From the NCBI GenBank assembly GCA_026392115.1, contig JAPLCQ010000157.1, forward strand, positions 1 through 37,684: a stretch of 37,684 nucleotides of DNA, given 5' to 3'. This document shows positions 12,493 to 37,684 of this stretch, in pieces (position 1 is the stretch's first letter; each line of letters starts with the position of its first letter). The notes under the pieces were generated by a model that was not told where the DNA came from, made no database searches, and saw only the letters and a program-made list of their open reading frames with translations. The stretch comes from Armatimonadota bacterium (lineage in GTDB: Bacteria; Armatimonadota; Chthonomonadetes; Chthonomonadales; CAJBBX01). The translations under genes were made by a program, and so were the position numbers.

Positions 12493-12533
12493 GGGGCGGC
12501 CATGGGGCCAGGGCGGCCACGGGGGGCCGCCCC
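12493..12533. terminator. GC-rich inverted repeat between convergent genes
   Basis: GGGGCGGCC (12493-12501) and GGCCGCCCC (12525-12533) form a perfect 9-bp stem around a 23-nt loop. The right arm touches the stop codon of the GxGYxYP gene (12535-12533), and the small membrane-protein gene ends at 12485. The element may be a bidirectional terminator or a copy of a dispersed GC-rich repeat. Confidence 0.45.
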
Positions 12534-14242: not shown

Positions 14243-14337
14243 ATCTATCTCCCGGTTGACGCCCATGCCGGGCGCCGCTTCCATGCATAGAGTACCGGAG
14301 AGGTACATCCACCCATGCCGAGCCGGAGGTCCATCCC

Positions 14338-16408: not shown

Positions 16409-16440
16409 GCCCGCGCCAAGACACGAGGAGAGAACGCATC

Positions 16441-18201: not shown

Positions 18202-18246
18202 CGCGCCGAGCCGCGGCCGCAGGTATCCTTCCGGCATGGATTGCCC

Positions 18247-23266: not shown

Positions 23267-24640
23267 TCACTCCCTGTCGGCGCGGCCGTTCGGTCGGTAC
23301 CACGCGATTCTCCACAAGAAGACGACATTCCCGATCACGTACCGCTTCCAGAGGCGGCCGGGCTCCTGCAGGAGCCGGTAGGCCCACTCAAAGCCGATGT
23401 CGCGCACCCACTGCGGCGCCCGGCTCACGCGGCCCGAAAAGAAGTCGAACAGGCCGCCCACACCCATGCCCACGCGGGCGCCGGTCCCGGCCAGGTGCTG
23501 CGCGACCCACTCGTCCTGCCGCGGCGCGCCCATGGCGACCAGCAGCAGGGACGGTTGCGCCCGGCGGATCGCGCCGATCACCTCTGGTTCCTGCTCGGGC
23601 GGGAAGTAGCCGTGCTGCACGCCCGCGACCGGAAGGCCCGGGTGGCGCTCGGCGATCCAATCGCGCACACCGTCGGCCACGCCCGGCTTGCCGCCAAGCA
23701 GGTAGATGGAGCGACCGGTCCCCTCCATCTCGGCGCAGAGCCTGGGGAAGAGGTCGGTTCCGTTCACGTTCTGGCGGATGGGCTGCCGCTTCAGTTTACC
23801 GGCGATCTTCATCCCGATGCCATCGGCAAGGACCAGGGCCGCGCGGGCCAGGACGTCGCGGTAGCCCGCGTTCACGACCGAGAGGTTGGCGCAGTCGGCA
23901 TTGACGAAGCAGACCTGCGTCGGCTTCGGCCCGGCCATGTCCGCCATCAGCCGCTCGATGGCATCCGACATCGTGTAGTTGTCGATGCGGATGCCCAGGA
24001 GGCTTACGGCATCGGGAACCTCGGTGTCGCCGGAGCCATAGATGAGCGCCGGGACGGCGCGGAGCGCGATGCCCACATCGGTGCGCAGGCTCGCGTGCTC
24101 CTCATACTCGGCGTCCGAGACGGCCTCACCTTCGAAGTCGACATTCGATCGGCTGCGAATCCAGTGGAGGCAGACCAGACCGGGCCGGGCCGAGCAGGTG
24201 CGCCGATAGAGCCGATCCCGCACCGCGGGACCGACATTGACGGGGCGTGGACCCACAAAGGACATATCGCCGCGAAGGATGTTGAACAGGGCGGGAAGGC
24301 GATGCAGCCGAAGGGCCCGGATGATGCGGTGGGGCCCGACCTCCGGGACGGCGAAGGCGAACTCCTCGAACGGCTCGCACCAGCGGCCCAACTGGGGATA
24401 TCGCCGCATGGGGCCATACGCAAGCCGGAGCAGCAGCAGCAGGGGCCACAGCACGAGGAGTTGCGCGGTCGCCAGCAGGATGTCGAAGCCCCGCTTCAGC
24501 CACGTTTCCCACTGGGCGGCCACGCGATGCGCGAAAACGCTCCAGGCCCTGCGGGCGGAGCGTCGGACACGGTCCTTGGGATCACCAAACCGGAGGAGAG
24601 GATCGACCTCTCCTCCGGTCTGGCCGGGCTCCTGGCCCAT
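23267..24640 (-). CDS. fusion of degenerate phosphoglycosyl transferase and WecG/TagA/CpsF glycosyltransferase
   Basis: A 457-residue two-domain protein. Residues about 45-195 match the bacterial sugar transferase (monotopic PGT) domain: KRGFDILLATAQLL membrane helix, GDMSFVGPRP (124-133) and ARPGLVCLHW. The catalytic DE dyad of the family ('DELPQL') is replaced by HR (LHRLPALFN, 112-120), and the KFRSM segment is absent. Residues about 210-440 are a GT26 domain with FVNADCANL, LADGIGM (271-277) and the C-terminal GGLFDFFSGRVSRAPQW. The GT26 half probably adds a sugar (ManNAc-type in studied members) to the lipid-linked intermediate made by the neighbouring intact PGT, with the dead PGT half serving as membrane anchor or partner. 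It starts 1 bp after the PGT stop. A 13-bp hairpin lies at codons 8-18. Confidence 0.85.
   Translation of the reverse strand: MGQEPGQTGGEVDPLLRFGDPKDRVRRSARRAWSVFAHRVAAQWETWLKRGFDILLATAQLLVLWPLLLLLRLAYGPMRRYPQLGRWCEPFEEFAFAVPEVGPHRIIRALRLHRLPALFNILRGDMSFVGPRPVNVGPAVRDRLYRRTCSARPGLVCLHWIRSRSNVDFEGEAVSDAEYEEHASLRTDVGIALRAVPALIYGSGDTEVPDAVSLLGIRIDNYTMSDAIERLMADMAGPKPTQVCFVNADCANLSVVNAGYRDVLARAALVLADGIGMKIAGKLKRQPIRQNVNGTDLFPRLCAEMEGTGRSIYLLGGKPGVADGVRDWIAERHPGLPVAGVQHGYFPPEQEPEVIGAIRRAQPSLLLVAMGAPRQDEWVAQHLAGTGARVGMGVGGLFDFFSGRVSRAPQWVRDIGFEWAYRLLQEPGRLWKRYVIGNVVFLWRIAWYRPNGRADRE
24589..24619 (-). promoter_or_regulatory. perfect 13-bp hairpin inside the start of the PGT-TagA fusion gene
   Basis: ACCGGAGGAGAGG (24619-24607 on the minus strand) pairs perfectly with CCTCTCCTCCGGT (24601-24589), with a 5-nt loop. 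It lies 22-52 nt after the annotated ATG at 24640. One arm contains a Shine-Dalgarno-like GGAGGAG and the other its complement. It may be an attenuator, a pause site, or, if the true start is downstream (e.g. GTG codon 40), a leader structure. Confidence 0.5.
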
Positions 24641-24641
24641 C

Positions 24642-25412
24642 TCAGTAGGCGCCTTTGCCCATGAGAACGGCCGGGACCGTCATCACCAGCAGCTTCAGGT
24701 CCAAGAGGAAGTTCTGGCTCTCGATGTAGCGCACGTCCAACTGCACCTGCTCGGGGAAGGGGATATCGCCGCGCCCCTCGACCTGCCAGATACACGTGAG
24801 TCCCGGCTTGATCTCCAAGCGTCGCCGGTCGGCCAGCGAGTAGAGGGCCACCTCGCGGGGCACCGGCGGGCGGGGCCCCACCAGCGACATCTGGCCGATG
24901 AAGACGCACCAGAACTGGGGCAGTTCGTCGATGCTCAGCTTGCGGATGATCCGGCCGATCCAGGTGATGCGCGGATCGTTCTTCATCTTGAAGGTGACGG
25001 CGCCGGCGCCGTGATCGTTCTGCTCGATCAGCTTGTCCTTCAGCGCTTCGGCGTTGGTCACCATGGAGCGGAACTTGGGGAAGCGGAAGTGCGTGCCGTG
25101 CCGGCCCACGCGGGTCTGCCAGAAGAGCACCGGACCGCGGTCGGTGAGCCAGATGCAGAGGGCAACGATGCCGAAGATCGGCGACAGGAGCAGCAGCGCC
25201 AGGGCCGAGCCGACGATGTCGATGGCGCGCTTCAACGTCTCGGCGAAGAGCACCGTGTTGCGGAAGGCGGCCATCCGGCTCTTGGCCCGATAATCCTGCA
25301 GCCTGCGGCGCCAGACCGGGTTGTCGTAGCGGCGGCTCAGGTCGTCCACCATCTCCGACCGGGATCGCTCCACCGTCGGGAGGTTCTTGATCTCTTGTGC
25401 CATTGTGGTCAT
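24642..25412 (-). CDS. initiating phosphoglycosyl transferase (undecaprenyl-phosphate sugar-1-phosphate transferase)
   Basis: A 256-residue monotopic PGT that would load the first sugar phosphate onto undecaprenyl phosphate and start exopolysaccharide repeat synthesis. The membrane helix is at about 66-90 (VGSALALLLLSPIFGIVALC). All key motifs are intact: GPVLFWQTRVG (93-103), FPKFRSM (111-117), LSIDELPQF with the catalytic Asp162-Glu163, SLVGPRP (176-182) and the C-terminal 'KPGLTCIWQVEGR'. The roughly 55-residue N-terminal extension before the helix is charged and helical. The first ATG is at 25412; 25403 is an alternative. It follows the GT4 gene by a 64-bp gap, the widest inside the operon, which holds a small CAGCG/CGCTG hairpin and a GATACT hexamer that might be a weak internal promoter. 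Confidence 0.92.
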   Translation of the reverse strand: MTTMAQEIKNLPTVERSRSEMVDDLSRRYDNPVWRRRLQDYRAKSRMAAFRNTVLFAETLKRAIDIVGSALALLLLSPIFGIVALCIWLTDRGPVLFWQTRVGRHGTHFRFPKFRSMVTNAEALKDKLIEQNDHGAGAVTFKMKNDPRITWIGRIIRKLSIDELPQFWCVFIGQMSLVGPRPPVPREVALYSLADRRRLEIKPGLTCIWQVEGRGDIPFPEQVQLDVRYIESQNFLLDLKLLVMTVPAVLMGKGAY

Positions 25413-25476
25413 GTCCTGCACCGCCTTTGCGCTTACCGGAATGGCTGCAGTATCGCGGCACAGCGTTAGCGCTGCA

Positions 25477-26625
25477 TTACCGTCGCCCTGCGGCGTCCTC
25501 CAGCACAGCGAGCGTAGCGGTAGCGGCTCGCTTCCAACTGAACTGCCCGGCCCGATGAAGCCCCGCGGCGCGGAGCTCGGACTGCCGCCGGGGGCTCTCG
25601 GCCACGCCGCGGATCGCCTCCGCCATGCCGGCCGCATCATCAGGATCAAACATCACCACGGCGTCGCCGCCCACCTCGGGCAGCGAAGAGGCCCTGGAGC
25701 AGGCCACGGGAGTGCCGCATCCCATGGATTCTAGAAGCGGCAGCCCAAAACCTTCATAGAGCGACGGAAAGACGAAGAGATCGGCGCCGCGATAGAGGTC
25801 CGGCACCGCGGCGTCGTCCACGAAGCCCAGAAACCGGATGTCGTCGGCGCAACCCGAGTCCGCGGCGGCGCCGTGCACGGCCTCGGCGCCCGACCAGTCG
25901 CTGCCTGCCAGCGCCAGCGTGTGGCTGGGCAGGGCGCCTGCGGCCTTGAGCCTCGCGAACGCCTCGATGAGGCGCACATGGTTCTTGCCGGGGTGCTCGA
26001 TGCGGCTGATGTAGAGCAGGTAGGGGGCCTTGAGCCCGAAGCGTCCGGCAACGGCGGTCTGAGCCGCACCCCGGTCGCCGGGCGTGTAGATGGCGGCATC
26101 GGCGGCCTCGGGGATGACGACGATCCGGTCCTCCGGCACGCGGGCGTGCGCCACGACGTCGCGCTTGCTGCACTCGCTGACGGTGATGGCCCGTGTGAGC
26201 CGCCGACAGAGCGCGGGCAGGGCGCGCCGGATGTAGAGGTCGCGCACGGCGTCGTACTTGCCGGGCACATGGAGGATGCTGAAGTCGTGCACCGTGCCCA
26301 CGGTGGGGCAGGGGCAGTACCAGGGCAGGCGCCGGTTGCCGGCGGGCAAGAAGAGCACGTCGTAGCCGCGCCGCGCGCAGAGCCGGCCCAGCGCCGAGAC
26401 GTGCCAGAGCAGGTTGGGCCGTATGCCCCGAAGCTCCGGCGCCAGCGAGACGGCTCCGATCTTCGAACCTCCCGGCACGAAGATGTCGAGTTCATCGGCA
26501 TAGGCCATCACCTCGAACTCGTGCCCGGTCTCCATGGCCGCGAACTCGCGGATCAGGCTGATGGTGTAGCGGCTGATGCCCGACTTGCCGCCGTCGGCGC
26601 CGCAGGTGCTGATGCCTATCCTCAT
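25477..26625 (-). CDS. GT4 family glycosyltransferase
   Basis: A 382-residue GT-B enzyme of family GT4. The N-terminal acceptor domain begins MRIGISTCGADGGKSGISRY; the donor domain has LLYISRIEHPGKNHVRLIEAF and the E-x7-E motif EGFGLPLLE followed by SMGCGTPVACS. It uses an NDP-sugar to extend the lipid-linked repeat unit on the cytoplasmic side. Its ATG overlaps the stop of the GT2 gene (ATGA). The upstream frame continues to 27564 but only as a shadow of the GT2 gene. Donor and acceptor cannot be predicted. Confidence 0.93.
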   Translation of the reverse strand: MRIGISTCGADGGKSGISRYTISLIREFAAMETGHEFEVMAYADELDIFVPGGSKIGAVSLAPELRGIRPNLLWHVSALGRLCARRGYDVLFLPAGNRRLPWYCPCPTVGTVHDFSILHVPGKYDAVRDLYIRRALPALCRRLTRAITVSECSKRDVVAHARVPEDRIVVIPEAADAAIYTPGDRGAAQTAVAGRFGLKAPYLLYISRIEHPGKNHVRLIEAFARLKAAGALPSHTLALAGSDWSGAEAVHGAAADSGCADDIRFLGFVDDAAVPDLYRGADLFVFPSLYEGFGLPLLESMGCGTPVACSRASSLPEVGGDAVVMFDPDDAAGMAEAIRGVAESPRRQSELRAAGLHRAGQFSWKRAATATLAVLEDAAGRR

Positions 26626-27539
26626 TTGGGGCCTCGCACGGACTCGTGCCGGTCCAGAACCATGCGCTGGCCGGTGGTCACATCCTTGCTGCCCGACGCG
26701 ATGCGCGCCTCGCCGTGGACGTGCCCGCGGTGGTAGGCCCAGGAGTAGACCCAGCGCCGCGCCGGGGTCTCCAGGAGGCCGCGCCAGTCGCCCGCGGCCA
26801 CGTGGGGCCCGATATCCCGCACCGCAGCCGCCAGGGCGCGGCGCAGGGCCGTCGCCGACGTGTCGCGGCCGCCGTAGATGAAGGCGTCGGCCTCGCCCTC
26901 GATGAAGCGCCGGCCGGTGAGCTGCGTCAGGGTGTAGTTGTGCGAGTGCATCACGACCGACTCCGGCACGTAGCGAACCACGAGGCCTGCGCCCGCGGCC
27001 CAGTGGCCCCATTCCGTGTCCTCGGAGCCCCAGGCGTCGGTGTAGAACTTGCGCCGCTCCCAGGCCGACCTGCGCATCCCCGCCAGCGGAAACGAGAGCG
27101 TGATCCACTCCGGCCCGGGCCCCGACGGCGGGAAGCTGACGGCGTAGTCGCGCCGCACCCAGGTGTCGGCCTCCGGGCGCGGCAGCTGCCGGGCGTATGC
27201 GGCGACCACGGCGGGATCGTCGAACGCCGCCACCAGGTTTCCCAACGCGCTCGGGTTCAGCGGGACCACGTCGGAGTTCTGCAAGACCACCAGCTCGGTC
27301 GCCACGGACCCGATGGCGTCGTTCAGCACGGCGCCGGGGTAGTAGTTGCCCGCGGGAATCTCGACGAGCCGGCAGGGGTACTGCCGCACGATCTCCAGCG
27401 TTCGGTCGGTGGAGCCGGAATCGACCACCAGCAGCTCGAAGTCGCGGTAGTCCTGCGAGAAGAGCCCGGAGAGCGCCTGGGCGATCACCCAATCCGAGTT
27501 CTTCGCCCGCATGATGACGGTGACGCGCGGGGCGCTCAT
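26622..27539 (-). CDS. GT2 family glycosyltransferase (rhamnosyltransferase-like)
   Basis: A 305-residue GT-A enzyme. The start VTVIMRAKNSDWVIAQALSG and the donor-site region ELLVVDSGSTDRT and VVLQNSDVVP (NSD at the place of the DxD motif) are typical of GT2 rhamnosyltransferase-like proteins. WGSEDTEWGHWAAGAG contains the ED motif of the catalytic-base region. The C-terminal 90 residues are helical. Start and stop both overlap neighbours by ATGA (27536-27539 and 26622-26625), so it is tightly coupled to the deacetylase-like and GT4 genes. The rhamnose assignment is a guess from family resemblance. Confidence 0.9.
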   Translation of the reverse strand: MSAPRVTVIMRAKNSDWVIAQALSGLFSQDYRDFELLVVDSGSTDRTLEIVRQYPCRLVEIPAGNYYPGAVLNDAIGSVATELVVLQNSDVVPLNPSALGNLVAAFDDPAVVAAYARQLPRPEADTWVRRDYAVSFPPSGPGPEWITLSFPLAGMRRSAWERRKFYTDAWGSEDTEWGHWAAGAGLVVRYVPESVVMHSHNYTLTQLTGRRFIEGEADAFIYGGRDTSATALRRALAAAVRDIGPHVAAGDWRGLLETPARRWVYSWAYHRGHVHGEARIASGSKDVTTGQRMVLDRHESVRGPK

Positions 27540-28375
27540 GCGTGCGCCTCCGCCGACCGCGCACGGTCCGCGTCGTCGATGATTCGGCTCATATGCACGG
27601 TTTCATGGCTCCGCAGGAACTCCAGGATCCGCTGGAACGAGGCCAGCTTGTCGCACAAGTAAAGCGTGATGGGGTGGATGATCATGTTCGAGACCGCGCC
27701 CCTCTCCTCGTGCTCCCGCAGGCCGTCGAGGACGATGTCCGTCCACTCCTCCACCTCGTAGGAGTCCGGCCCGAAGTCGTCTGACCAGTTGTAGCGCTTC
27801 TGCCACCAGGCGACCCACTCGCGGGTGCGCTCCGCGTGGTAGAGATGCTCGTGGTCCGGAATGATGTTGAGCGGGTAGTTGTAGATGCCCGCGCGGTGTG
27901 CGATCGGGCCGCAGCAGTCCCGCTTAACGCCGTCGGAGCAGACGCGCATGCCCGCGCCGGCCAGCGCGCGCTCGGTATGGCGCCCATGCATGTACATGTG
28001 GTTGCGCCAGACGCAGGCGGTGCGGCCCGTCTTCTGCTGGATGATGGCGGCCGTCCGCCGCGCATCCCACCGCTGGAACCAGAGCGGACCGTTGTAGCTG
28101 CCCAGGGCCTTGTTGCAGACCCGGTGGAAGAGCGTGTTCTGGAAGCAGTCCCAGTTGTGCCCGCCGATCTCCACGAGGGGGCTCTCCGTCAGCGGCTTCA
28201 GGTCCTCCCACTCCTCGGCGAAGCACTTGCCCGAGATGAAGAAGGTGGCCTTGACGCCTGCCTCCTCCAGCAACTTCAGGTAGCGGCATGCGACCTGGAT
28301 TTCAGTGATGTCGCAGTGCTGCTGGTTGCCGGTGCGGAGGCTGCTGTGGTGGATGTCGCCGGTCAGGCAGATCAT
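27536..28375 (-). CDS. polysaccharide deacetylase-like (NodB-fold) protein
   Basis: A 279-residue protein that starts with MICLTGDIHHSSL, where Asp7 and the His pair take the place of the NodB 'TFDD' metal motif. It continues with the typical VKATFFISGK strand (41-50) and a VEIGGHNWDCFQN segment (68-80) where a metal histidine is expected. The family hydrolyses N- or O-acetyl groups from sugars; here it might trim the growing exopolysaccharide unit. No signal peptide is seen, so it is probably cytosolic, which is uncommon for deacetylases acting on finished polymers. Both ends overlap neighbours by ATGA. Conservation of the metal set is only partly visible, so activity is uncertain. Confidence 0.75.
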   Translation of the reverse strand: MICLTGDIHHSSLRTGNQQHCDITEIQVACRYLKLLEEAGVKATFFISGKCFAEEWEDLKPLTESPLVEIGGHNWDCFQNTLFHRVCNKALGSYNGPLWFQRWDARRTAAIIQQKTGRTACVWRNHMYMHGRHTERALAGAGMRVCSDGVKRDCCGPIAHRAGIYNYPLNIIPDHEHLYHAERTREWVAWWQKRYNWSDDFGPDSYEVEEWTDIVLDGLREHEERGAVSNMIIHPITLYLCDKLASFQRILEFLRSHETVHMSRIIDDADRARSAEAHA

Positions 28376-29592
28376 GCCGCTGGGCCATCCATGGCCAGGC
28401 CCAACCGCTCCAAGGTCAACCCGAAGTTCACATCGCCGGTGCGCCCCCACGCCGCAAGGTAGGCCGAGCGCAGGTCGTCGGCGCCGGTGGAGGCGGCCGA
28501 GAGCATGCTCTGCGCCATGCGCCGGTAGGCCTCGTCCTCCAGCTCGTAGGCGATGACCGGGAAGAGGATCGGCATGGCGCCCGCCATCCCCGCCGTCATC
28601 GCCCCCAGGGCCGCGTCGAAGGGCAGTCCGCGCACGGGTGTCTCGCGCTTGAGGACGTTCACGAGCTTGCGGGCGATCTGGCGGAGGGTGTCGACGCGGT
28701 CGAACGCCTCGTGGGCCATGGCGCGGCGGGGGTACGTGGCCCATGTCAGCCCCTCGGCTCCCAGCCGCAGCGCCTCGCACTCCAGATGCACGGGCGCCAG
28801 CGCCTGGCGCAGTTCGCGCATCCACGCCACCGGGTCGCGCGAGAGGTAGGCGGCATAGTCGGGCCGGAAGCGGAACTCCACGGCCTCATCGTAGAGGGCG
28901 CGGAAGTCGGGCGCCACGTCGGTCCGGGTCTGCATGCGACGCTGCTTCTCGGCGTAGCTCCAGTGGTAGGCCCGCCGGAAGAAGAGGAGCGCGTCTCCGT
29001 AGCCGATGACGGCCTTCACGGCATGCTTCACCATGACGCGCCGGTCGGCGTCGGTGGGCGCACGCCGCTGCAGGAGGTAGTCGTTGATGACGAGCAGCGT
29101 TCCCCGGTTCACCAACAGGTTCCGCACGTCGTACGCCGCGATGGCGCCCGGCGTGAACCGCGTGAGGGAGGGCACGTAGTCGGCGTCGCCCAGCAGTGTC
29201 TTGTGGCCGAAGCGCATGTCGTGCCACATGACGAGGCATGGAGACACGGCAAGGGCGCCGTCGGTTACGACGCCCGCGTCCAGACCAATGCCGTGCGCCT
29301 CCGACAGGGGCTTCAGGGCTTCGTCCACCTTGCGCTTCAGCGCCTGCGGGTCGCCTGCGCCGGACCGCGCGATCAGCAGGAAGTCGAGGTTGTTGTGCGG
29401 CCGCTCGCCGCCGGGCGTGGCCTCCACTCCGCCCTCGCCCCGACCGTAGCCGCCTATGAGCACGACCGCGCGGTAGGTGGCCGGGTCCAGCGCCGCCGAG
29501 CAGGCCGCAACCGCTTCGGTCACCAGCGAGGTGATACGCTCCTCGACCTCGGGGCTGCCGTACCGCGTGAACCGACCCCATTGCTCGTTCAT
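28372..29592 (-). CDS. nucleotidyltransferase-fold protein of unknown function
   Basis: A 406-residue soluble protein. Residues 46-73 contain IGGYGRGEGG and, after a short gap, NNLDFLLI. This is the pattern of minimal nucleotidyltransferase domains (GG.GRGEG then N-D-x-D/E), but the first metal Asp is Asn (Asn68) while Asp70 is kept. The remaining roughly 300 residues are helical (e.g. 'HAVKAVIGYGDALLFFRRAYHWSY'), resembling the helical partner region of GlnD-like or kanamycin-type NTases. I cannot name the substrate. It sits between a GT4 and a deacetylase-like gene, joined to both by ATGA overlaps, which ties it to polysaccharide synthesis. The start at 29592 has an AAAGGAGG site, the longer frame to 29676 does not. 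Confidence 0.8.
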   Translation of the reverse strand: MNEQWGRFTRYGSPEVEERITSLVTEAVAACSAALDPATYRAVVLIGGYGRGEGGVEATPGGERPHNNLDFLLIARSGAGDPQALKRKVDEALKPLSEAHGIGLDAGVVTDGALAVSPCLVMWHDMRFGHKTLLGDADYVPSLTRFTPGAIAAYDVRNLLVNRGTLLVINDYLLQRRAPTDADRRVMVKHAVKAVIGYGDALLFFRRAYHWSYAEKQRRMQTRTDVAPDFRALYDEAVEFRFRPDYAAYLSRDPVAWMRELRQALAPVHLECEALRLGAEGLTWATYPRRAMAHEAFDRVDTLRQIARKLVNVLKRETPVRGLPFDAALGAMTAGMAGAMPILFPVIAYELEDEAYRRMAQSMLSAASTGADDLRSAYLAAWGRTGDVNFGLTLERLGLAMDGPAA

Positions 29593-30749
29593 AGCCCGCC
29601 TCCTTTGCCCGCCAGTCCGCGCAGCAGCGCCAGCAGGTCGCGCACGTGTCGGTCCGGCCGGAACCGCTCCTCCCACTCCTTGCGGCCCTCAGCGCCGAGC
29701 CGCGCGGCCAGTTCGGGTTCGCCCGCGAGTCTGTCCATGGCCCGCGCCAGTGCGGTCGGGTCGTTGGCCGGCACGGCCAGGCCGGTCCGTTCCGGTGTGA
29801 GCCACTCGCCCGTTCCGCCCACCATGGTGGCGATGACGGCCGTGGATCGGCTCATGGCCTCTGGCCCGACCAGCCCGAAGGTCTCCGGTCCGCGGCTGGG
29901 AAAGACGACGAACCCGGCCTGGGCGTAGGCTCGGGCGAGGCCCGCATCGTCCGCCTTCCCGGCGAAGTCGACGCGGCTGCCCAGCCCCAGCGCCGCGGCC
30001 TGGGCGCGATAGGCCTCCTCGAACTTGCCCGTGCCGTGTACGAGCAACCGCACGGGCTTCCGGCAGAGGGCCAGCGCGTCCAGCAGCGTGTCGAACCCCT
30101 TGGCCATGGCGCCCAGCTGGCCCACGAAGAGGGCCAGGTCGGGCTCCCGCACCGGCCGATCGGCCGGAGCCGGCGGCTCGGTCGTGTAGAGCGGAAGGAC
30201 ATGCGTGCGGGCCTTGTCGAACCCGTGCGCGGCGATGTGGCCCGCCATGTAGCTTGAGCCGACCACGAAGGCCTCCAGCCCCTTGTTGGCCGCCTGTTCG
30301 CGGAGCACGCTCCAGGGCCCCACGAAGCGCAGGCCGCCGTCCTTCACCAGACCGCCGTGGCAGGCCAGGCAGCCCGGTCCCACGGTGCGGGTGCAGGTGC
30401 GGCGCCCGCGAGCCGTGTACTTGTGCTCGCGGGTGCAGAAGAGGCGGTGGTCGTGGAAGAAGCGCGCAACCGGCGCGGCCCCCTGCTCGAAGGCGCGAAC
30501 GGGCGCGATGCCGCTCAGCCGGTGGATGTAGACCACATCGGGCTTCAGGGCGACGAGTTGGCTCGGGATGTCCACCATGGGGAAGGCGGCGTCGAAGGCC
30601 CTGGTGAATGCCGGGTCATGGTCGCCGGCGACCGAGTACATCAGCGTGGAGTGAACGCCGAACTCGCGAAACAGCACGGCCGTGTCGCGCACATAGCGCT
30701 CACAGCCGCCCGTCAGACCGGCGATCTCATTGACCCAGAGCAGGCGCAT
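29589..30749 (-). CDS. GT4 family glycosyltransferase
   Basis: A 386-residue GT-B enzyme. The N-terminus MRLLWVNEIAGLTGGCERYV carries the Gly-rich acceptor loop. A Cys-rich stretch (about residues 106-130: FCTREHKYTARGRRTC, CLACHGG) resembles the Cys-containing loop seen in some GT4 enzymes of polysaccharide loci. The donor domain has LFVGQLGAMAKGFDTLL and the E-x7-E motif PETFGLVGPEAM. It ends in a basic helix (RPDRHVRDLLALL). Its stop overlaps the start of the NTase-fold gene by ATGA. It lies 27 bp after the preceding GT4 gene. Sugar specificity is unknown. Confidence 0.92.
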   Translation of the reverse strand: MRLLWVNEIAGLTGGCERYVRDTAVLFREFGVHSTLMYSVAGDHDPAFTRAFDAAFPMVDIPSQLVALKPDVVYIHRLSGIAPVRAFEQGAAPVARFFHDHRLFCTREHKYTARGRRTCTRTVGPGCLACHGGLVKDGGLRFVGPWSVLREQAANKGLEAFVVGSSYMAGHIAAHGFDKARTHVLPLYTTEPPAPADRPVREPDLALFVGQLGAMAKGFDTLLDALALCRKPVRLLVHGTGKFEEAYRAQAAALGLGSRVDFAGKADDAGLARAYAQAGFVVFPSRGPETFGLVGPEAMSRSTAVIATMVGGTGEWLTPERTGLAVPANDPTALARAMDRLAGEPELAARLGAEGRKEWEERFRPDRHVRDLLALLRGLAGKGGGL

Positions 30750-30776: not shown

Positions 30777-32024
30777 TCAGGTTCCGCGTTGCGGGCGCTG
30801 CGCGATGGCGTCTTCGTAGATGCCCACGAGCTTGCGGGTCACAACGTCCCAGCCGTACTCCGCCGCGGCCCTCGCCTTGCCGCGGGCGGCCATGGCGGCG
30901 CGCAGGGGCCGATCCGAGAGCGCCCGGGCCAGTGCGGCCAACACCTGGGCGTCGTCATCGGGGTCGAAGAGCAACCCGTCGGCGCCCTCCACCACGAAGG
31001 AGGGAATGCCGCCCACCCGGCTGGCGACCACGGGCAGGCCCGCGGCCCATGCCTCCAGCACCACGATGCCGAAGGGCTCGTGGACCGAGGGCAGGGCAAA
31101 CAGGTCGGCCGCGTGGTAGGCGTTCACCAACTCGTGGCTGGCCGTGTCCAGGCCGGGTATGAGCGTCAGGTGACCGGTGAGGCCCTGGCGCTGGGCATAG
31201 GCCTCGATCTCCTGCCGGTACGAGGCGTTGGTCACATGGCCGATGAGCACCAGGTGCGCCTTGGGGTCCATGCGGCGAATCTCGGGGAGCAGGCGCAGCA
31301 GGAGCATCTGGTTCTTCTGCACGTCGATGCGGCCCACGGTGAGGATGACGGTGGCCTCGGCCGGGATGCCCCGCCGGGCGCGAAAGCCCGCGCCGTCGCC
31401 GGTCGCGAATCGCTCGGAGTTCACGCCGTTGGGCAGAAGCAGCACGTTCTTGTGCGGGTAGCGCGCCTGCACGGCCTTCTGTTCGCCCGCGCCGACGCAG
31501 AGGATGGCCGAGGCGTCCTCCATCACGCGGTTGCTGCCCACCCACATGCCCAGGGCGCGCCCCCACTCCAAGGCGCCGCGGCTCGGCTCGGTCCAGGTGG
31601 CCGCCTCGCCTCGGGGCACGTCATAGACGCCGCCGTGCAGCGAGACCACATACGGGATGCCCCGCTTCAGGGCCACGTGGCGGCCGATGCCGCCGAGCCG
31701 CTTCTGGGTGTGCAGGTGGATGACGTCGAGCCCCGGCCACTCCTTCAGGGCGCGCATGAGCTGGAAGGAGAAGAGGTTGCCGCCCTTCTTGTCCAGTTGC
31801 CGCCGGGCTTCGACCCGCAGGCCCAGGTAGGGGTAGAAGTAGGGGTAGCGGTGGACCTGCACGCCGTCGATCTCTTCCTCGTTGGTGGCGGCAAGGGCGT
31901 TGGGGCAGGCGATGAAGGTGTCGTGTCCCATCCCCAGCAGGCGCTTGCTGGTCTCAAGGACGACGGTCTCGGTGCCGCCCCACTCCTCCCGCACGAACCG
32001 GCGCGGGACCTGGGCCACTCTCAT
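30777..32024 (-). CDS. GT4 family glycosyltransferase
   Basis: A 415-residue GT-B enzyme. The first strand and loop are MRVAQVPRRFVREEWGGTET; HLHTQKRLGGIGR and SLHGGVYDVPRGE are typical acceptor-domain pieces. The donor domain has ILTVGRIDVQKNQMLLLRLL and the E-x7-E motif HEPFGIVVLEAW. It lies between the Wzz-like gene (15 bp upstream) and the next GT4 (27 bp downstream). It probably adds one sugar of the repeat unit. The specificity cannot be read from the sequence. Confidence 0.93.
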   Translation of the reverse strand: MRVAQVPRRFVREEWGGTETVVLETSKRLLGMGHDTFIACPNALAATNEEEIDGVQVHRYPYFYPYLGLRVEARRQLDKKGGNLFSFQLMRALKEWPGLDVIHLHTQKRLGGIGRHVALKRGIPYVVSLHGGVYDVPRGEAATWTEPSRGALEWGRALGMWVGSNRVMEDASAILCVGAGEQKAVQARYPHKNVLLLPNGVNSERFATGDGAGFRARRGIPAEATVILTVGRIDVQKNQMLLLRLLPEIRRMDPKAHLVLIGHVTNASYRQEIEAYAQRQGLTGHLTLIPGLDTASHELVNAYHAADLFALPSVHEPFGIVVLEAWAAGLPVVASRVGGIPSFVVEGADGLLFDPDDDAQVLAALARALSDRPLRAAMAARGKARAAAEYGWDVVTRKLVGIYEDAIAQRPQRGT

Positions 32025-32039
32025 CTAGCTGATCTCCCG

Positions 32040-34190
32040 TCATGCATCGCGCGTTATGAAGAGCCGGCTCACGCGGTTGAGCAGAACTCCCGCCACGGGC
32101 TTCCCGGCGGCTCCCAGGCGCTCCGCCGCTTGCCGGGCATCGGATCGGCGTGTGAAACGGCTGCGGATCACCAGCGCCGAGGCATCCATATTATGGGCCA
32201 GAAGCTCGGCCTCGACGCCCTCCCGCACGGGACTTGCCAGAACCAGCACCACCGTGTAGGCCGCCGACGCTTCACGCAGCAGGCGCGCCATGCGCTCCGA
32301 GGCCAGCGAATCGGCCTCCATATCGGCTCCGCCGCGCGTAAGGAGCGAGACGCCGTCGATGCCGGTGGGAAGGACGGCGCCCGCGAGCGCGCCTTCGGAC
32401 GCCAGCGCCAGGGCCAGGCCCGCTTCCGGCGCGTCACCGGCCCAGAGGGCCATGCCCGGGGTCAGTTCCGACCGGGCGTCGATGACGAGGACGCGCTCGT
32501 CCTGCCGGGCCAGGCTGACGGCCAGGTTCTGCACGACGGCGCCGGCGCCGACATTGGCGGTTACGCCGGCCAACAGGATGCGGGCGCCCTCCTGCGGGAC
32601 GGCCTGCCGGAGGCGCCGCGCGGCCATGCTGAAGCGCTCGGCCACCGGCTGCGGCGGCATCCAGGGCTCCGACGCGGGCAACCGGCAGGCCGGCAACGAG
32701 CCGAGCGGCTCCAGACCCGTGTGCAGCCGCGCCTCGGAGGTGCAGCGCACGGTGCGGTCCAGCGCCTCCAGGCCGATCACTAGAAGCAGGCCCACGAACA
32801 GGCCGCCCATGAGGATGCCGGCGGCCAGCATCATCTTGTTGGACTTCATCGGGCGCTTGGGCACATCGGCGTCGGTCACCGTCCCGAAGTCCATGCCCAC
32901 CAGATCCTGCACGCGTCGAGCCTGCGAGAGCCGTTCCTCCAGATCCTTGCGCTCCGCTTCAAGGGTGGCGATGTCGCGCGACAGCGTGTCGAACTCCCGC
33001 TGCTGCGCCGGGATGCGGTCCAGCAGAATCTGCACGCGGCTTCGAGCGGAGGACAGCGACCGTACGCGCTCGATCACGGCCACCTTCTGCAACTGGATGT
33101 CGAGGCTGCGGATGAGCGTCTCGCGGAGCACGGGCATGCTGGGCGCGTCGCCGCCGGACTGCGGGATCACGGTGCCTTTTAGGCGCTCCAGCTCCTCGCG
33201 CCAGCCCCGGTCCTTGACGGTGTCGATGGCGGCGATCTTCGCCTTCTCGTGGGCGGTTACGGCCCGCTCGTAATCGGCCTCGGAGATGGCGCCGATCTCC
33301 ATCAGCATCTTGTAACGCGCCATCTCCTGCTCGCGAAGGCGGAGCTCGGCCTCGTCGACCCGCACCTTCTTGTCGTCCGCGATGGCCTCCTTTATCTGCT
33401 CGATGCGAATCTTCACGTCGCTGAGCGTCTCCATGTCGCGGATCGACTTGCTCTCCCTGGCCACCCGGTCCTTCAGCTCGGCGACGATCTTGTCCAGTTG
33501 GGCGGACTGCTGCTCGACGGTCTTTCGGTCGGCCTGGGCCTGCTCCAGAAGCACGCCGTAGTTGTTGTACTCCTCCAGCATGGCCCGCGACTGTTTTTCG
33601 ATATCAACGATCTTGTTTGCAGCCGTGAATGTTTCAAGATCGGCATCTTTTTCTCTGAGCAGGTTTCGAACGCCCTCGAGTTGCCGCTGCAGGCTGGCGA
33701 TGCGGTTGTCGGCGTCCCGCCGGTCTCCACTGCGGTAGTGCTCCAGAAACACGTCGCGCATGGCGCGCGCCAGTGCGGCGGCGCCCTTGCCCGTGGACCA
33801 ATCGGCGCTGATGCGCATGAGGGTCGTGTTCTTGATGACCTCGACTTCGATCGCCTTTCCGACGGTCTCGACCGGCGCGGTGAAACCCACGCGTGAGCGG
33901 ACATCATCCACATTGCTGCGGGTCTTCACCGTGTCCTTGAGCGTGACGACGATGGTCTTCTCGTCGGCGTCCTTGCCCAGTTCGGCGTTGGGCCGGAAGC
34001 GGATCAGCGTCTCGGCGTGATAGACGCTCGATGCGTACTCCGTGCTGAGCGACTTGGCGAACAGACCCGCAACCGCCGCGCAGAGGAGCACGATGGGCAG
34101 CTTGACGGCGACGCTCAGAAGCGTGGCCCGCAAGTCGATGCGGAGCCCGCGGACGGCCGCTGCTGGTTTGGTCTCTTGCGTCTCGGACAT
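32040..34190 (-). CDS. Wzz/GumC-type polysaccharide co-polymerase with degenerate BY-kinase domain
   Basis: A 716-residue inner-membrane protein of the PCP-2 type. Two membrane helices (about 26-46 and 452-474) bracket a long periplasmic part with extended coiled coil (about 160-430, rich in Leu/Glu/Arg heptads). The Wzz-like proline motif before helix 2 is VPKRPMKSNK. The cytoplasmic C-terminus (about 515-716) has the BY-kinase fold, with the Walker A' strand VLVIDA (567-572). The Walker A loop reads VTANVGAGAVVQNLA (543-557) and lacks the lysine, and there is no C-terminal Tyr cluster. It would still control chain length and bridge to the export complex but probably does not autophosphorylate. 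It lies 10 bp after the flippase gene. Confidence 0.9.
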   Translation of the reverse strand: MSETQETKPAAAVRGLRIDLRATLLSVAVKLPIVLLCAAVAGLFAKSLSTEYASSVYHAETLIRFRPNAELGKDADEKTIVVTLKDTVKTRSNVDDVRSRVGFTAPVETVGKAIEVEVIKNTTLMRISADWSTGKGAAALARAMRDVFLEHYRSGDRRDADNRIASLQRQLEGVRNLLREKDADLETFTAANKIVDIEKQSRAMLEEYNNYGVLLEQAQADRKTVEQQSAQLDKIVAELKDRVARESKSIRDMETLSDVKIRIEQIKEAIADDKKVRVDEAELRLREQEMARYKMLMEIGAISEADYERAVTAHEKAKIAAIDTVKDRGWREELERLKGTVIPQSGGDAPSMPVLRETLIRSLDIQLQKVAVIERVRSLSSARSRVQILLDRIPAQQREFDTLSRDIATLEAERKDLEERLSQARRVQDLVGMDFGTVTDADVPKRPMKSNKMMLAAGILMGGLFVGLLLVIGLEALDRTVRCTSEARLHTGLEPLGSLPACRLPASEPWMPPQPVAERFSMAARRLRQAVPQEGARILLAGVTANVGAGAVVQNLAVSLARQDERVLVIDARSELTPGMALWAGDAPEAGLALALASEGALAGAVLPTGIDGVSLLTRGGADMEADSLASERMARLLREASAAYTVVLVLASPVREGVEAELLAHNMDASALVIRSRFTRRSDARQAAERLGAAGKPVAGVLLNRVSRLFITRDA

Positions 34191-34200
34191 CGCCTGGTCC

Positions 34201-35760
34201 TCAGCCCTCGGGGGCGGCTATCGGCTCTGCCTGTGCCCCCCGGCGGCGCAGCATACGGGTCAGGATGAGGCGCTTCTCCGATGGGTCGGTGAAACCCAGC
34301 CAGAGCGCCGCTAGGGCCGCGCCCATGCCGGGCAGGGCGAGCAGCGCCACCTCCCAGAGCCGATGCGGGGGAAAGGCGGCCCGCAACGCCAGCGAGACGC
34401 CCACCTGCGCGGCGGCGGCAGCCGCTCCCGGCACGATCACCCGGCGCAGGTACTGCGGGCCCGTCACCGAGTGGACGCGGCAGGCGTGACCCGTCGCATA
34501 GAGCAGATCGCCGATGATCGTTGCCAAGAGAGTACCCGCCGCCACGCCGGCCATGCCGAGCGGCCGCACCAGAAGCAGGCTGAAGCCCACGTTCAGGACC
34601 ATCCCCACCACCTGCGCCCGCGCCGAGAACGCGTGGTGGCCGCCCATGACGAGCACGATGGCCGCGACCATCTGCGGCACCGAAAGCCACATGGCGGTGA
34701 CGAGCAGGGCCATGGTGGGCGCGGCCCACGCGTAGGCAGGGCCCACCCAGAGCGTGAGCAGGTCGCGCGAGAACGAGGCGGCGGCGGCGGCGGGCAGGCA
34801 GGCGCCCACGAAGGCGAACTTGGCGGCGTTGAGGAGCACGAAGCGAATCTTCTGCTCGTCGCCCTCGCCTTTGAGCATGGCGACAACCGGCGACATGGCG
34901 TTCACGCCCTGCTTGGTGAGCAGGTAGACCGCCTCGGCGATCCGCAGCGCCACCGTGTAGGCGGCCACGGCGGAGAGGGGCAGGAAGAGCTTCAGGATCA
35001 CCGGGTCCGTTCGCAGGCGGACCAGCGCGGCCACATTGACGACCAGCTGCGAGAGGCTGAAGGAGGTCATCTCGCCCAGCAGCGAGCGGTCGGCCAGCCG
35101 GGGCGAGACACGCAGGCCGGGCACGAGCAGGAAGGCCAGGACGACATAGGCCGCGTACTCGGCCAGCATGGCGGCGAGATTGGCCCAGGCCAGCGCGACC
35201 ACGCCGCCGCCTGCCGTCAACGTCAGCACCGTCAGGACCGCGTAGAGCGCGTTGCCGACGATCTGGATGATGTTCACCACCCAGATCTTCTGGTCGCCGA
35301 ACAGCACCCCCTGGAAGAGGCCCAACGGCAGCGCCAGGATCACGTTGCGGAAGCCCAGGATCCAGAGGATCGCCAGCGCGCGGGCGTGCTGCTCGACCGG
35401 GATGGCGAAGACGCGGTTGAAGAACACCGCCAGCAGCGCGATGCAGAGCCCGCCGACCAAGCCGAGGCCCAGGTAGACGATGGCCAGCGTGCTGACCATG
35501 CGGTTGCGCCGATCGAAGTCGCCAGCGCCCCGGCACTCGGCCACGTACTTCACCGTGCTAGTGGCGAAGCCGCAGTCCATCAGCGCCACGAAGCCCAGAA
35601 CGGCGAAGACCAGCGACCAGAGGCCGAAGTCCTGCGCGCCCAGGCGGCCGACCATGAAGGGCGTCAGCGCCAGCATGATCACCATGTTCACGCCGAACCG
35701 CAGGTAGCTGGCTCCGGCGTTCAAGGCGAACTGCGCGCTGCGCGAGATGCGCTCGGTCAT
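34201..35760 (-). CDS. Wzx-type oligosaccharide flippase
   Basis: A 519-residue membrane protein with 12-14 predicted helices, of the polysaccharide transporter (MOP superfamily) group. The N-terminal block (NAGASYLRFGVNMVIMLALT, PFMVGRLGAQDFGLWSLV) is typical of Wzx proteins. It would flip the lipid-linked repeat unit to the outer face of the inner membrane. The start at 35760 overlaps the polymerase stop (ATGA); the longer frame to 35886 runs through the polymerase gene in another frame. With the adjacent Wzy-like and Wzz-like genes it completes the Wzx/Wzy-dependent pathway. Confidence 0.92.
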   Translation of the reverse strand: MTERISRSAQFALNAGASYLRFGVNMVIMLALTPFMVGRLGAQDFGLWSLVFAVLGFVALMDCGFATSTVKYVAECRGAGDFDRRNRMVSTLAIVYLGLGLVGGLCIALLAVFFNRVFAIPVEQHARALAILWILGFRNVILALPLGLFQGVLFGDQKIWVVNIIQIVGNALYAVLTVLTLTAGGGVVALAWANLAAMLAEYAAYVVLAFLLVPGLRVSPRLADRSLLGEMTSFSLSQLVVNVAALVRLRTDPVILKLFLPLSAVAAYTVALRIAEAVYLLTKQGVNAMSPVVAMLKGEGDEQKIRFVLLNAAKFAFVGACLPAAAAASFSRDLLTLWVGPAYAWAAPTMALLVTAMWLSVPQMVAAIVLVMGGHHAFSARAQVVGMVLNVGFSLLLVRPLGMAGVAAGTLLATIIGDLLYATGHACRVHSVTGPQYLRRVIVPGAAAAAAQVGVSLALRAAFPPHRLWEVALLALPGMGAALAALWLGFTDPSEKRLILTRMLRRRGAQAEPIAAPEG

Positions 35761-37094
35761 GCGGGCGCCCCGGCCGCCGCCGGCGGGCAGTCGGCGGACC
35801 GGCCCTTCAGTTGCTCCGCCAGACCCACCGCGAGCCCCGAGCAGACGGCGTACATGAACGTGACCGGAGTGATCCGGAACACCCACTCATAGAAGCCGCT
35901 GACGTGCAGCGCCACGGCGCCCGCCGCGAGTGCGAACAGCAATCCCGCCTCCAGTCCGCGTTTGAGCAACGCCGGGATCAGGGCCAGGCCCAGGAACCGG
36001 ATCAAGATGACGGCGAAGATGTACTTGGCCCCGGTACCCATCTCCGCCGCCGTCAGGTTGTAGATATGGTGGCAGACGCCGGCCTGCTCCTCGTCCTGCA
36101 TGACGGAAACGAAGCCGCTGTACCGCGACTCCTTGGTGAGAGCTTCGGAGAAGTTGTTGACGCCCACACCGAACATGTGGTCGTCGGCCATGCGCTTGGC
36201 GGCCATATTGAACTCGTCCCGCGCCTCTTCGCTGCTCTCCGGCGCGCTCTTTACCCTCTCCATGATGCTCTTGGCGGCCAAAGCCCCTCCGATGCAGACC
36301 AGGATGATGGCGGCCGTCGTGGCGATGCGGACGCGCTTGCCGGGCAGCCGTATGTTGGCGTAGGCGATGGCCCCCATGAAGGTGCCAATGGAGAGGAGCA
36401 TACCCAACCGCGAGAAGGTCGCCTGGGACGCCGCGATCAGGCCCAGCGCCGCCAGCACGGACGCCGCGGCGCTGCGCGGCGACAGCACGGGGTCGCAGAG
36501 GCCCAACAGCACCACCACGGGAAGGAACTGGTTGATGAAGAGGGGCAGCGTGTTGGAGTGGTCGAACGGCCCCGGCACCCGGTACATATGGTACAGGTAC
36601 TTCTGCTTCAGCGCCAGGAAGACGACGTAGAACGCGGAGATGATGAACCCGCGCCAGACGGCCGGCCCCTCGAACCCCACCCGCATCACATGGACCACGG
36701 ACCAGAAGATCACGAACCCGCGCGCCCACTTGAGGAGCGAGAAGGCCGCATAGAGGGGCTGGGAGGCGCCGGCGGCGGAGATCAGCGCGAAGCAGTAGAG
36801 CGCCGCCAGCCAACCGGTGTTGTAGGGCGCCCAGCGAATCTTGTCCGGGTAGCGGGCCGCCACCGCGATGATGAGCGCCCAGGCCACCAGGTCGGTGAGG
36901 TTGAACTCAAAGCCCCGGTCCGGCCCTCTGTACCACTCCATCGAGACGAAGTTGATCTTGGTGCTGTTGCTCAGCGCGGTGGAGAAGATGAGCAGCGTGA
37001 CGAGCCAGCCGCGCGCCTTGGCGCTGTTCATGGCCAGCCAGGCCATCAGGGGCACGCCGGCTACGAGCATGAGACCGAAGACGAGGTACTTCAC
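35757..37094 (-). CDS. O-antigen ligase/Wzy-type polymerase
   Basis: A 445-residue polytopic membrane protein (about 10-12 helices) of the O-antigen ligase/Wzy family. The long periplasmic loop before the last helices contains MFGVGVNNFSEAL and HHIYNLTAAEMGTG, which correspond to the family's 'G.G..nf' and 'H..yl...aE.G' elements. In this Wzx/Wzz context, polymerisation of repeat units is the likely role. It starts with GTG at 37094, 3 bp after the stop of the upstream gene, and its stop overlaps the flippase start. Confidence 0.88.
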   Translation of the reverse strand: MKYLVFGLMLVAGVPLMAWLAMNSAKARGWLVTLLIFSTALSNSTKINFVSMEWYRGPDRGFEFNLTDLVAWALIIAVAARYPDKIRWAPYNTGWLAALYCFALISAAGASQPLYAAFSLLKWARGFVIFWSVVHVMRVGFEGPAVWRGFIISAFYVVFLALKQKYLYHMYRVPGPFDHSNTLPLFINQFLPVVVLLGLCDPVLSPRSAAASVLAALGLIAASQATFSRLGMLLSIGTFMGAIAYANIRLPGKRVRIATTAAIILVCIGGALAAKSIMERVKSAPESSEEARDEFNMAAKRMADDHMFGVGVNNFSEALTKESRYSGFVSVMQDEEQAGVCHHIYNLTAAEMGTGAKYIFAVILIRFLGLALIPALLKRGLEAGLLFALAAGAVALHVSGFYEWVFRITPVTFMYAVCSGLAVGLAEQLKGRSADCPPAAAGAPA

Positions 37095-37097
37095 CGC

Positions 37098-37684
37098 CTA
37101 TGCGCCGACCTCTGCGCGCATGATGGGGTAGATGCCGTCCAGCCGGGAGGGCGGCGCCACGTCCGCGGCGTTGGTGGCGAACATGGCCGCCGAATCCGGG
37201 TGGTCCGGCACATAGCCGTGCATGCCGGGGATGGGCCGCAGGCCCATGAAGCTGGGGCAAATCAGCACGCCTGAGTTGGCCACGAAGAAGAGCTCGCCGT
37301 ACTTGCGGCCCGGGAAGTCGCACCCGAAGCGCACCAGGTCGGCGTCGGAGAGGATGCGCCCCAGCGGTTCGGAGCCCAGGGCTCTCTCGGTGGCGGCGCG
37401 CGCCCCGTCCGTGAGGAACCAGAAGCGGGCCATGGTCGAGTCGTACATCGCCACGTAGTCCTTGCCGAAGCGCAGCCCGGTGGCGCGCATCCGGGCCTGC
37501 AGGTCGCAGGTGGCGGTGACGTCGGCCATGCCGTGGTCGGAGAAGACGAAGACGCGCACGCGCTCATGGCGCGTCTGGGCCTGGGCGATCACGGACCGGA
37601 GCTCGCGGTCGTACTCGGCGATCTTCCGGCCCACCAGCGGCGACTGCGTCCCGTGGGCGTGGAGCACGCCGTCCATGGAGGCCA
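37098..37684 (-). CDS. alkaline-phosphatase-superfamily phosphodiesterase/phosphatase (partial, 5' end outside window)
   Basis: The C-terminal 195 or so residues of a larger enzyme; the frame is open to the right edge and the true start lies beyond it. The visible part has DGVLHAHG (metal-binding Asp and His), VFVFSDHGM (Asp-His metal pair) and GMHGYVPDHPDSAAMF (another metal His). This is the arrangement of type I phosphodiesterase/nucleotide pyrophosphatase-like members. It is the first visible gene of the exopolysaccharide operon and may add, move or remove a phosphate-linked substituent; that role is inferred from place only. The gene ends 3 bp before the polymerase start. Confidence 0.8.
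   Translation of the reverse strand, partial: ASMDGVLHAHGTQSPLVGRKIAEYDRELRSVIAQAQTRHERVRVFVFSDHGMADVTATCDLQARMRATGLRFGKDYVAMYDSTMARFWFLTDGARAATERALGSEPLGRILSDADLVRFGCDFPGRKYGELFFVANSGVLICPSFMGLRPIPGMHGYVPDHPDSAAMFATNAADVAPPSRLDGIYPIMRAEVGA

Follow-up and report, generated by a model that had tools for sequence, protein, structure and literature searches.

The window analysed here is the whole 37,684-nucleotide stretch of contig JAPLCQ010000157.1 (C75 in the genome scan) from an Armatimonadota bacterium (assembly GCA_026392115.1). It carries on its minus strand a polysaccharide gene cluster in which a nucleotidyltransferase-like protein (NT) is encoded between a glycosyltransferase (GT4a) and a polysaccharide-deacetylase-like protein (PDA). 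NT was single-copy in its 5.7-Mb genome, its nearest relatives in the genome scan came from uncultured Chthonomonas, and it belongs to a real, conserved family that could not be assigned to a curated one and forms part of a closely paired system with an NPP-fold phosphodiesterase. The central features of the locus were:

28372..29592, minus strand: NT (P0001), AadA-fold nucleotidyltransferase-like protein of 406 aa; open reading frame with ATG at 29592; AlphaFold2 model with mean pLDDT 95 and pTM 0.93; best structural relatives AadA/ANT(9) at Z about 13 over 222 residues
29428..29454, minus strand: GGYGRGEGG, NT residues 47-55, glycine-rich motif of the nucleotidyltransferase (NTase) fold; G47, G50, R51, G52, E53, and G54 in 69/69 rows of the family alignment
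29383..29394, minus strand: NNLD, NT residues 67-70, with Asn68 replacing the first metal Asp and Asp70 kept (sequence and family alignment)
29278..29280, minus strand: Asp105, third carboxylate of NT, opposite the "LEG" Glu of the AadA_C family in the alignment
29589..30749, minus strand: GT4a glycosyltransferase (GT4, PF00534, E 1e-27), overlapping NT by 4 bp
27536..28375, minus strand: PDA (Polysacc_deac_1, PF01522, E 1.9e-7), overlapping NT by 4 bp
37098..37684, minus strand: NPP-fold (alkaline phosphatase superfamily) phosphodiesterase (PF01663, E 8e-10), C-terminal part, cut by the contig end

The original prediction had singled out a GGYGRGEG and NNLD protein joined by ATGA overlaps to a GT4 and a deacetylase-like neighbor, and this description was confirmed for the reading frame, both motifs, and both Pfam assignments. 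Direct reading of the sequence showed that one ATGA joins the GT4a stop to the NT start codon, with AAAGGAGG shortly upstream, and that a second ATGA is shared by the NT stop and the PDA start codon. Stoichiometric production with both neighbors had also been proposed and may be suggested by the overlaps; the GT4-NT fusions found in two loci are better evidence of coupling. Between the window and the same-genus copy in G029, codon positions 1, 2, and 3 differed at 17, 14, and 89 sites, respectively, and the NG86 dN was 0.033 against a dS of 0.357, i.e. purifying selection. As same-genus copies differ mainly at third positions and homologues exist in many phyla, the NT gene is more than a chance open frame.

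The genome scan returned 547 pattern matches and 290 NT relatives, and the loci analysed were the best 80 of these 290. The family alignment comprised 69 rows (the window and 68 loci), with 12/80 loci, all carrying Asp68, outside both alignment and tree. Some loci were near-redundant, including L058 and L059 with the same protein and the close sets L033/L034, L035/L037, and L020/L021/window. P0001 alone matched no NCBIfam model and no PDB sequence, and its Pfam matches all fell below the cut-off (best E 0.051). Among the 69 rows, no Pfam or NCBIfam family was matched by more than seven, the most frequent being NTP_transf_2 (PF01909; 7/69 rows, best E 0.0026, P0001 not among them). Single-row matches to DUF2555 (E 2e-4), IsiD (E 1.8e-5), and a FAD-synthetase model (E 1.4e-4) were taken as chance, as were three PDB sequences matched by NT rows at E 0.07-0.8. 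Plasmid and phage collections gave no NT match, the plasmid collection gave no phosphodiesterase match, and a viral-structure comparison gave no match at E 0.001. A literature search found neither the NT family nor the NT/phosphodiesterase pair named in titles or abstract openings, which is weak evidence of absence given the thin coverage of subscription journals.

The closest partner of NT, overlooked by the original prediction, is the phosphodiesterase, and the association is near-obligate. In 640 pooled genomes from three phyla, related to one another and in many cases incomplete, both genes occurred in 67, NT alone in one, the phosphodiesterase alone in three, and neither in 569. The phosphodiesterase was therefore present in 67/68 NT genomes compared to 3/572 without NT (marginal hits scored as absent). 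In the Armatimonadota, each gene was found in 10/291 genomes and nine genomes held both, the remaining hits being marginal (G265 for NT, E 6.4e-4; G036 for the phosphodiesterase, E 6e-4); scoring these as absent gives 9/9, and scoring them as present gives nine shared genomes and one with each gene alone. The Verrucomicrobiota contained NT in 51/194 and the phosphodiesterase in 53/194 genomes with 50 in common (G377, E 9e-8, G480, and G483 scored as present). The Myxococcota had NT in 8/155 genomes and the phosphodiesterase in 38/155 at E 0.001, strong matches (E <1e-60) being confined to the same eight and the 30 genomes with weak partial matches (E 1.1e-6 to 6.5e-4) scored as absent. In addition, 38/40 genomes from NT loci carried the phosphodiesterase, G295 and G325 of these being also in the phylum sets. 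Because the genomes are related, Fisher P values are too small and overstate independence. The comparison gene WecG was present in 275/291 Armatimonadota, such that the match is not shared by every polysaccharide gene. The two genes were adjacent in L047, L049, L052, L060, L075, and L079 and likewise in G219, G220, and G666 (L018, L017, and L108), were separated by a single gene in four loci of myxobacteria in the order phosphodiesterase - GT4a - NT - GT2, and were fused in L058/L059 and G254.

Residues 5-188 of the window phosphodiesterase matched the end of contig C48 from the same genome, which is probably the remaining N-terminal part of the gene. The same phosphodiesterase heads the G008 cluster, ordered phosphodiesterase - Wzy - Wzx - chain-length protein - GT4a - NT - PDA as in the window minus GT4b. 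A model of the same-genus copy L020:1311-2447 (pLDDT 95.9) matched the NPP fold from end to end (Z 28.7-29.7 across 312-320 residues among the 50 rows listed; Foldseek E 6.7e-17), and the sequence matched ENPP7 at E 3.5e-8. ENPP6 and autotaxin ranked among the best structural matches, and the titles of matched structures describe ENPP6 as a choline-specific glycerophosphodiester-phosphodiesterase and ENPP7 as an alkaline sphingomyelinase. The NPP active site consists of Asp, a nucleophilic Ser/Thr, Asp, His, Asp, His, and His. All seven metal and nucleophile positions were present in 35/38 phosphodiesterase rows (34/36 distinct proteins), a set that excludes partial hits; the exceptions were the fusions. 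Of the window copy, the C-terminal part alone is present. The nucleophile of the NPP family (PF01663) is typically Thr, and the partner differs in having Ser at the aligned position; in the title of 5veo, inactive ENPP5 is given as T72A. It further differs in being encoded in a bacterial polysaccharide cluster and in lacking a signal peptide as judged by eye, and is apparently cytosolic. The AlkP-NT fusions L058:8738-11083 and L007:1015-3408 lack the phosphodiesterase Ser and retain the canonical Asp68, the reverse of the window's clade. Snake venom phosphodiesterase is also among the NPP relatives, and this NPP-type enzyme is reported to strip AMP from proteins (PMC3612183, PMC12409994).

The nucleotidyltransferase fold suggested from the sequence was supported by the NT model, whose seven best structural rows were all ANT(3'')(9)/AadA or ANT(9) enzymes (Z 12.7-13.1, 213-227 residues, rmsd 3.3-4.0), with HalB, kanamycin nucleotidyltransferase, MNT antitoxins, and GlnE (domains at Z 8.2-8.8) ranking below. 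The NTase-fold superfamily is recognized by hG[GS], then [DE]h[DE], plus a third carboxylate. In the window group the motif and third carboxylate are present and the first acidic residue is Asn, compared to Asp in the sister group. A study of AadA describes adenylation of a sugar hydroxyl, two Mg bound by Asp47, Asp49, and Glu87, ATP phosphates bound by Arg192, Lys205, and Tyr231 among others, and definition of ANT(3'')(9)/AadA by Pfam NTP_transf_2 plus AadA_C (PMC6065190). Like AadA/ANT(9) (PF01909 + PF13427), NT has an NTase domain followed by a helical domain and keeps the second Asp and third carboxylate. Unlike AadA, no NT row matched AadA_C (0/69; Pfam, E 0.1), the window protein aligns as N68/D70/D105 in place of two Asp and a Glu, and NT is approximately 130 residues longer at the C-terminus and set among polysaccharide genes. 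In a profile comparison with four AadA_C-family proteins (E 0.0014), N68 fell opposite the first Asp of SDID and D105 opposite the Glu of LEG, a placement serving as a guide only at a probability of 17%; this Glu would correspond to AadA Glu87. In the ANT(3'')(9)/AadA enzymes, Trp112, Asp182, and His/Asn185 surround the ring that is modified. Two other families invite comparison. The LicD-family protein CpsC is an NTase-superfamily enzyme of a capsule pathway in a family using CDP conjugates, according to PMC11666461. LicD/fukutin (PF04991) shares the superfamily with NT, but 0/69 NT rows matched it in Pfam at E 0.1; a distant kinship may exist. For GlnD, model TIGR01693 matched 3/69 rows (best E 7.8e-4). 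A single GlnD chain carries HD and ACT domains besides its NTase domain, and its motif resembles the NT GGYGRGE; neither HD nor ACT was matched by P0001 or featured among the 14 Pfam families matched by the 69 rows.

The predicted substitution of the first metal Asp by Asn68 proved correct, and the proposed check of this position in homologues gave a clean split. Asn occurred in 26/26 rows of the window's group and Asp in 43/43 rows of the other, corresponding to 25/80 Asn68 and 55/80 Asp68 loci since all 12 unaligned loci carry Asp. The groups were separated by one branch (SH-aLRT 100) with one change in a quick, midpoint-rooted tree, for which reason the direction of change was taken from the superfamily and not from the tree. 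Asn68 is therefore not peculiar to the window gene and marks one entire side of the NT tree. D70 and D105 were invariant in 26/26 Asn-group rows, compared to Glu in 24 and Asp in 19 Asp-group rows at position 70 and Glu in 25, Asp in 17, and His in one at position 105. All 69 rows shared the glycine-rich motif residues together with N67, N162, R163, K193, G199, and Y209; the Asn68 group keeps the alignable part of the active site bar one metal ligand. According to record labels, its genomes, mainly metagenome bins, span approximately 10 phyla, namely Armatimonadota, Pseudomonadota, Hydrogenedentota, Thermodesulfobacteriota, Spirochaetota, Myxococcota, Planctomycetota, Campylobacterota, Bdellovibrionota, and Gemmatimonadota.

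Linkage to GT4a, one of the two partners initially proposed, was borne out in the window's clade. GT4a directly preceded NT in 22/25 Asn-group loci, was fused to it in two (L040 and L042), and was non-adjacent in L024. At the extremes of the 22 junctions were a 2-base offset on the gap side and an overlap of 11 bases, with a 4-base overlap in 13, lengths that are approximate as start codons in the loci were picked by position. The other proposed partner, PDA, turned out to be optional. It followed NT in 22/25 Asn-group loci and was present in 17/19 Asn-group genomes compared to 0/11 Asp-group genomes, but was absent from two of the former and from 7/7 further Myxococcota genomes (four of them read as Asn-type), and five Armatimonadota genomes lacking NT contained it at approximately 41% identity. 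An obligate role was therefore rejected, and since PDA is patchy and GT4a and the phosphodiesterase are retained, the latter two look like the core and PDA an accessory. Polysaccharide deacetylases usually carry TFDD and H[ST]xxH motifs; at these places PDA has GDIHHSS and GGHNWD, such that its metal site may be unusual.

Coupling of NT to polysaccharide genes, as originally suggested, was upheld by the survey of homologue neighborhoods, in which 76/80 loci held at least one window-like polysaccharide gene (25/25 Asn-group and 51/55 Asp-group loci) and 54/80 at least three. NT homologues therefore lie among the genes of Wzx/Wzy-type clusters, as a component of such clusters does. An exclusive confinement to polysaccharide contexts was rejected on account of the 4/80 loci without window-like genes, where 10 proteins were scanned; L058 has glycosyltransferase and MptE-like neighbors, and in L047 NT and the phosphodiesterase are still side by side. 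In the window, the minus-strand gene order was phosphodiesterase (cut) - Wzy - Wzx - chain-length protein - GT4b - GT4a - NT - PDA - GT2 - GT4c - PGT - WecG, where PGT is a polyprenol-phosphate sugar-1-phosphate transferase. The locus resembles Wzx/Wzy clusters in general in its PGT, WecG, glycosyltransferases, Wzx, Wzy, chain-length protein, and deacetylase-like protein, and differs in adding the NT/NPP pair. The further genes of the cluster were:

35757..37094, minus strand: Wzy-like polymerase, named by eye; homologues in other clusters of the same kind
34201..35760, minus strand: Wzx-like flippase (MatE; family scan)
32040..34190, minus strand: Wzz/BY-kinase-like chain-length protein (by eye and weak GNVR/BcsQ matches), without a GK[ST] Walker-A motif
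30777..32024, minus strand: GT4b glycosyltransferase (family scan)
26622..27539, minus strand: GT2 glycosyltransferase (Pfam), likewise after PDA in many Asn-group loci
25477..26625, minus strand: GT4c glycosyltransferase (family scan)
24642..25649, minus strand: PGT (Bac_transf, PF02397, E 1.1e-62), start codon uncertain
23267..24640, minus strand: WecG/TagA/CpsF glycosyltransferase carrying an incomplete Bac_transf part at its N-terminus (family scan)

The chain-length proteins found in Asn-group loci lacked GK[ST] in the C-terminal part in 9/9 cases, and 5/7 Asp-group ones keep it. PGT, a complete Bac_transf priming transferase, directly adjoins the WecG protein with its second, partial Bac_transf part (23267-25649). 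In G042 (L013:9556-10176), the open frame next after NT encodes a secreted-looking protein with a PEP-CTERM-like tail as judged by eye. Outside the polysaccharide genes, the window contains an apiosidase-like and collagen-binding-like protein at 19424-20827 (PF13204, E 7e-114), a GxGYxYP putative glycoside hydrolase at 12533-14308, and an 899-aa open frame at 16222-18921 with no Pfam match at E 0.001, a candidate gene only.

The favored, though still tentative, reading is that NT is an unnamed AadA-fold family of Wzx/Wzy-type clusters which, with its NPP-fold partner, attaches and removes, or processes, a nucleotidyl-type group on a glycan intermediate. We infer this chemistry from the AadA-like fold for transfer to a hydroxyl, from the gene context for a sugar target, and from the NPP partner for phosphodiester cleavage. 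NT would bind a nucleoside triphosphate and metal, and the Asp68 members may transfer a nucleotidyl or related phospho-group, the acceptor hydroxyl belonging either to a sugar intermediate in the cytosol, probably a lipid-linked one, or to an assembly protein; the phosphodiesterase would remove or process this group. In the window's clade, where Asn68 stands beside Asp70 and Asp105, the transfer activity is probably lower or of another kind, and NT may work with GT4a as a nucleotide-dependent partner or modified transferase. Several observations weigh against this reading. The Foldseek E for the NT model was 2.5e-3 at best, the AadA matches leave residues 279-406 uncovered, and Asn68 is expected to harm two-metal catalysis. 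The group need not be a nucleotide because NPPs also cleave non-nucleotide phosphodiesters, with ENPP6 and autotaxin among the best matches. The cytosolic assignment of the phosphodiesterase came from N-termini judged by eye, and the AlkP-NT fusions without its Ser are ill-suited to a simple write/erase cycle. G391, G307, and G328 have NT without the phosphodiesterase, possibly as incomplete assemblies, the neighborhood counts cover NT loci only, and in L047, L055, and L068 no polysaccharide family was found in the two neighbors scanned for each.

An inactive scaffold had been raised in the original prediction on the grounds of Asn68, and in its extended form the window-clade NT would be a pseudo-transferase that still binds nucleotide but transfers nothing, and that serves the neighboring GT4 as a subunit for regulation or as a scaffold. 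This is somewhat unlikely, although consistent with N68 throughout the Asn group, its origin as a single change on the tree, and GT4a adjacent in 22 and fused in two of 25 loci. A pseudoenzyme is expected to relax the rest of its active site. In the Asn group, however, D70 and D105 are fixed in 26/26 rows though Asp and Glu vary in the Asp68 group, the glycine-rich motif, N162, R163, K193, and Y209 are invariant in both groups, and the phosphodiesterase is retained, with all seven catalytic positions complete in the seven Asn-group copies readable in full. The substitution itself therefore stands, but as the other two carboxylates never vary a dead scaffold is not the sole reading, and the stricter conservation of positions 70 and 105 compared to the sister group led to a preference, if a narrow one, for a change of chemistry or a nucleotide-dependent link to GT4a.

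The remaining alternatives accept a different substrate or deny a direct link. A LicD-like NT that draws on a CDP conjugate to decorate the repeat unit with a phospho-alcohol (phosphocholine, phosphoglycerol, or phosphoethanolamine), with the NPP-fold enzyme trimming that group or recycling the donor, would suit the capsule role of CpsC and its family's CDP conjugates (PMC11666461), and the ENPP6 and ENPP7 relatives of the partner, phosphodiesterase and sphingomyelinase by title. It is improbable, with no LicD match in Pfam at E 0.1 in any of the 69 rows and with the nearest folds to NT transferring AMP. Slightly more doubtful again is a role of the pair in controlling assembly proteins through reversible nucleotidylation in the manner of GlnE/GlnD, e.g. 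a chain-length protein with a degenerate BY-kinase-like part. The TIGR01693 matches, the GGYGRGE likeness, and the 9/9 Asn-group chain-length proteins without C-terminal GK[ST] speak for it, as does the reported removal of AMP from proteins by NPP-type enzymes (PMC3612183, PMC12409994). Set against this, the helical domain is of AadA type with no HD/ACT match, no target was found, and the group in which all chain-length proteins are motif-less is the Asn68 group. Least probable of all is that the two genes lack any direct link and co-occur simply as members of one and the same large polysaccharide cluster. Both genes do reside in such clusters and may travel together, kinship among genomes inflates the independence assumed in the Fisher values, and the comparison gene, WecG, is a common one. 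Yet the pattern recurs in three phyla, fusions exist (L058 and G254), the pair is adjacent in L047 with two scanned non-polysaccharide neighbors, and WecG, the one further cluster gene whose distribution was tested along with that of the deacetylase, is in 275/291 genomes.

Surface polysaccharides are usually explained by glycosyltransferases, a flippase, a polymerase, and a chain-length regulator. The tight pairing of a transferase-like protein and a phosphodiesterase in such clusters suggests an overlooked phosphodiester-chemistry step in many phyla. The pairing identifies the partner of NT, fusions found in nature hint at complexes, and two catalytic states can readily be compared across the Asp/Asn split. 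More speculatively, and with a good deal of doubt, reversible nucleotidylation of a glycan intermediate, with NT as writer and the NPP-fold enzyme as eraser, might be an unrecognized Wzx/Wzy step in more than 10 phyla that acts like a protecting group or a licence to build the chain, the GT4-tied Asn branch being a writer turned sensor of the glycosyltransferase step.

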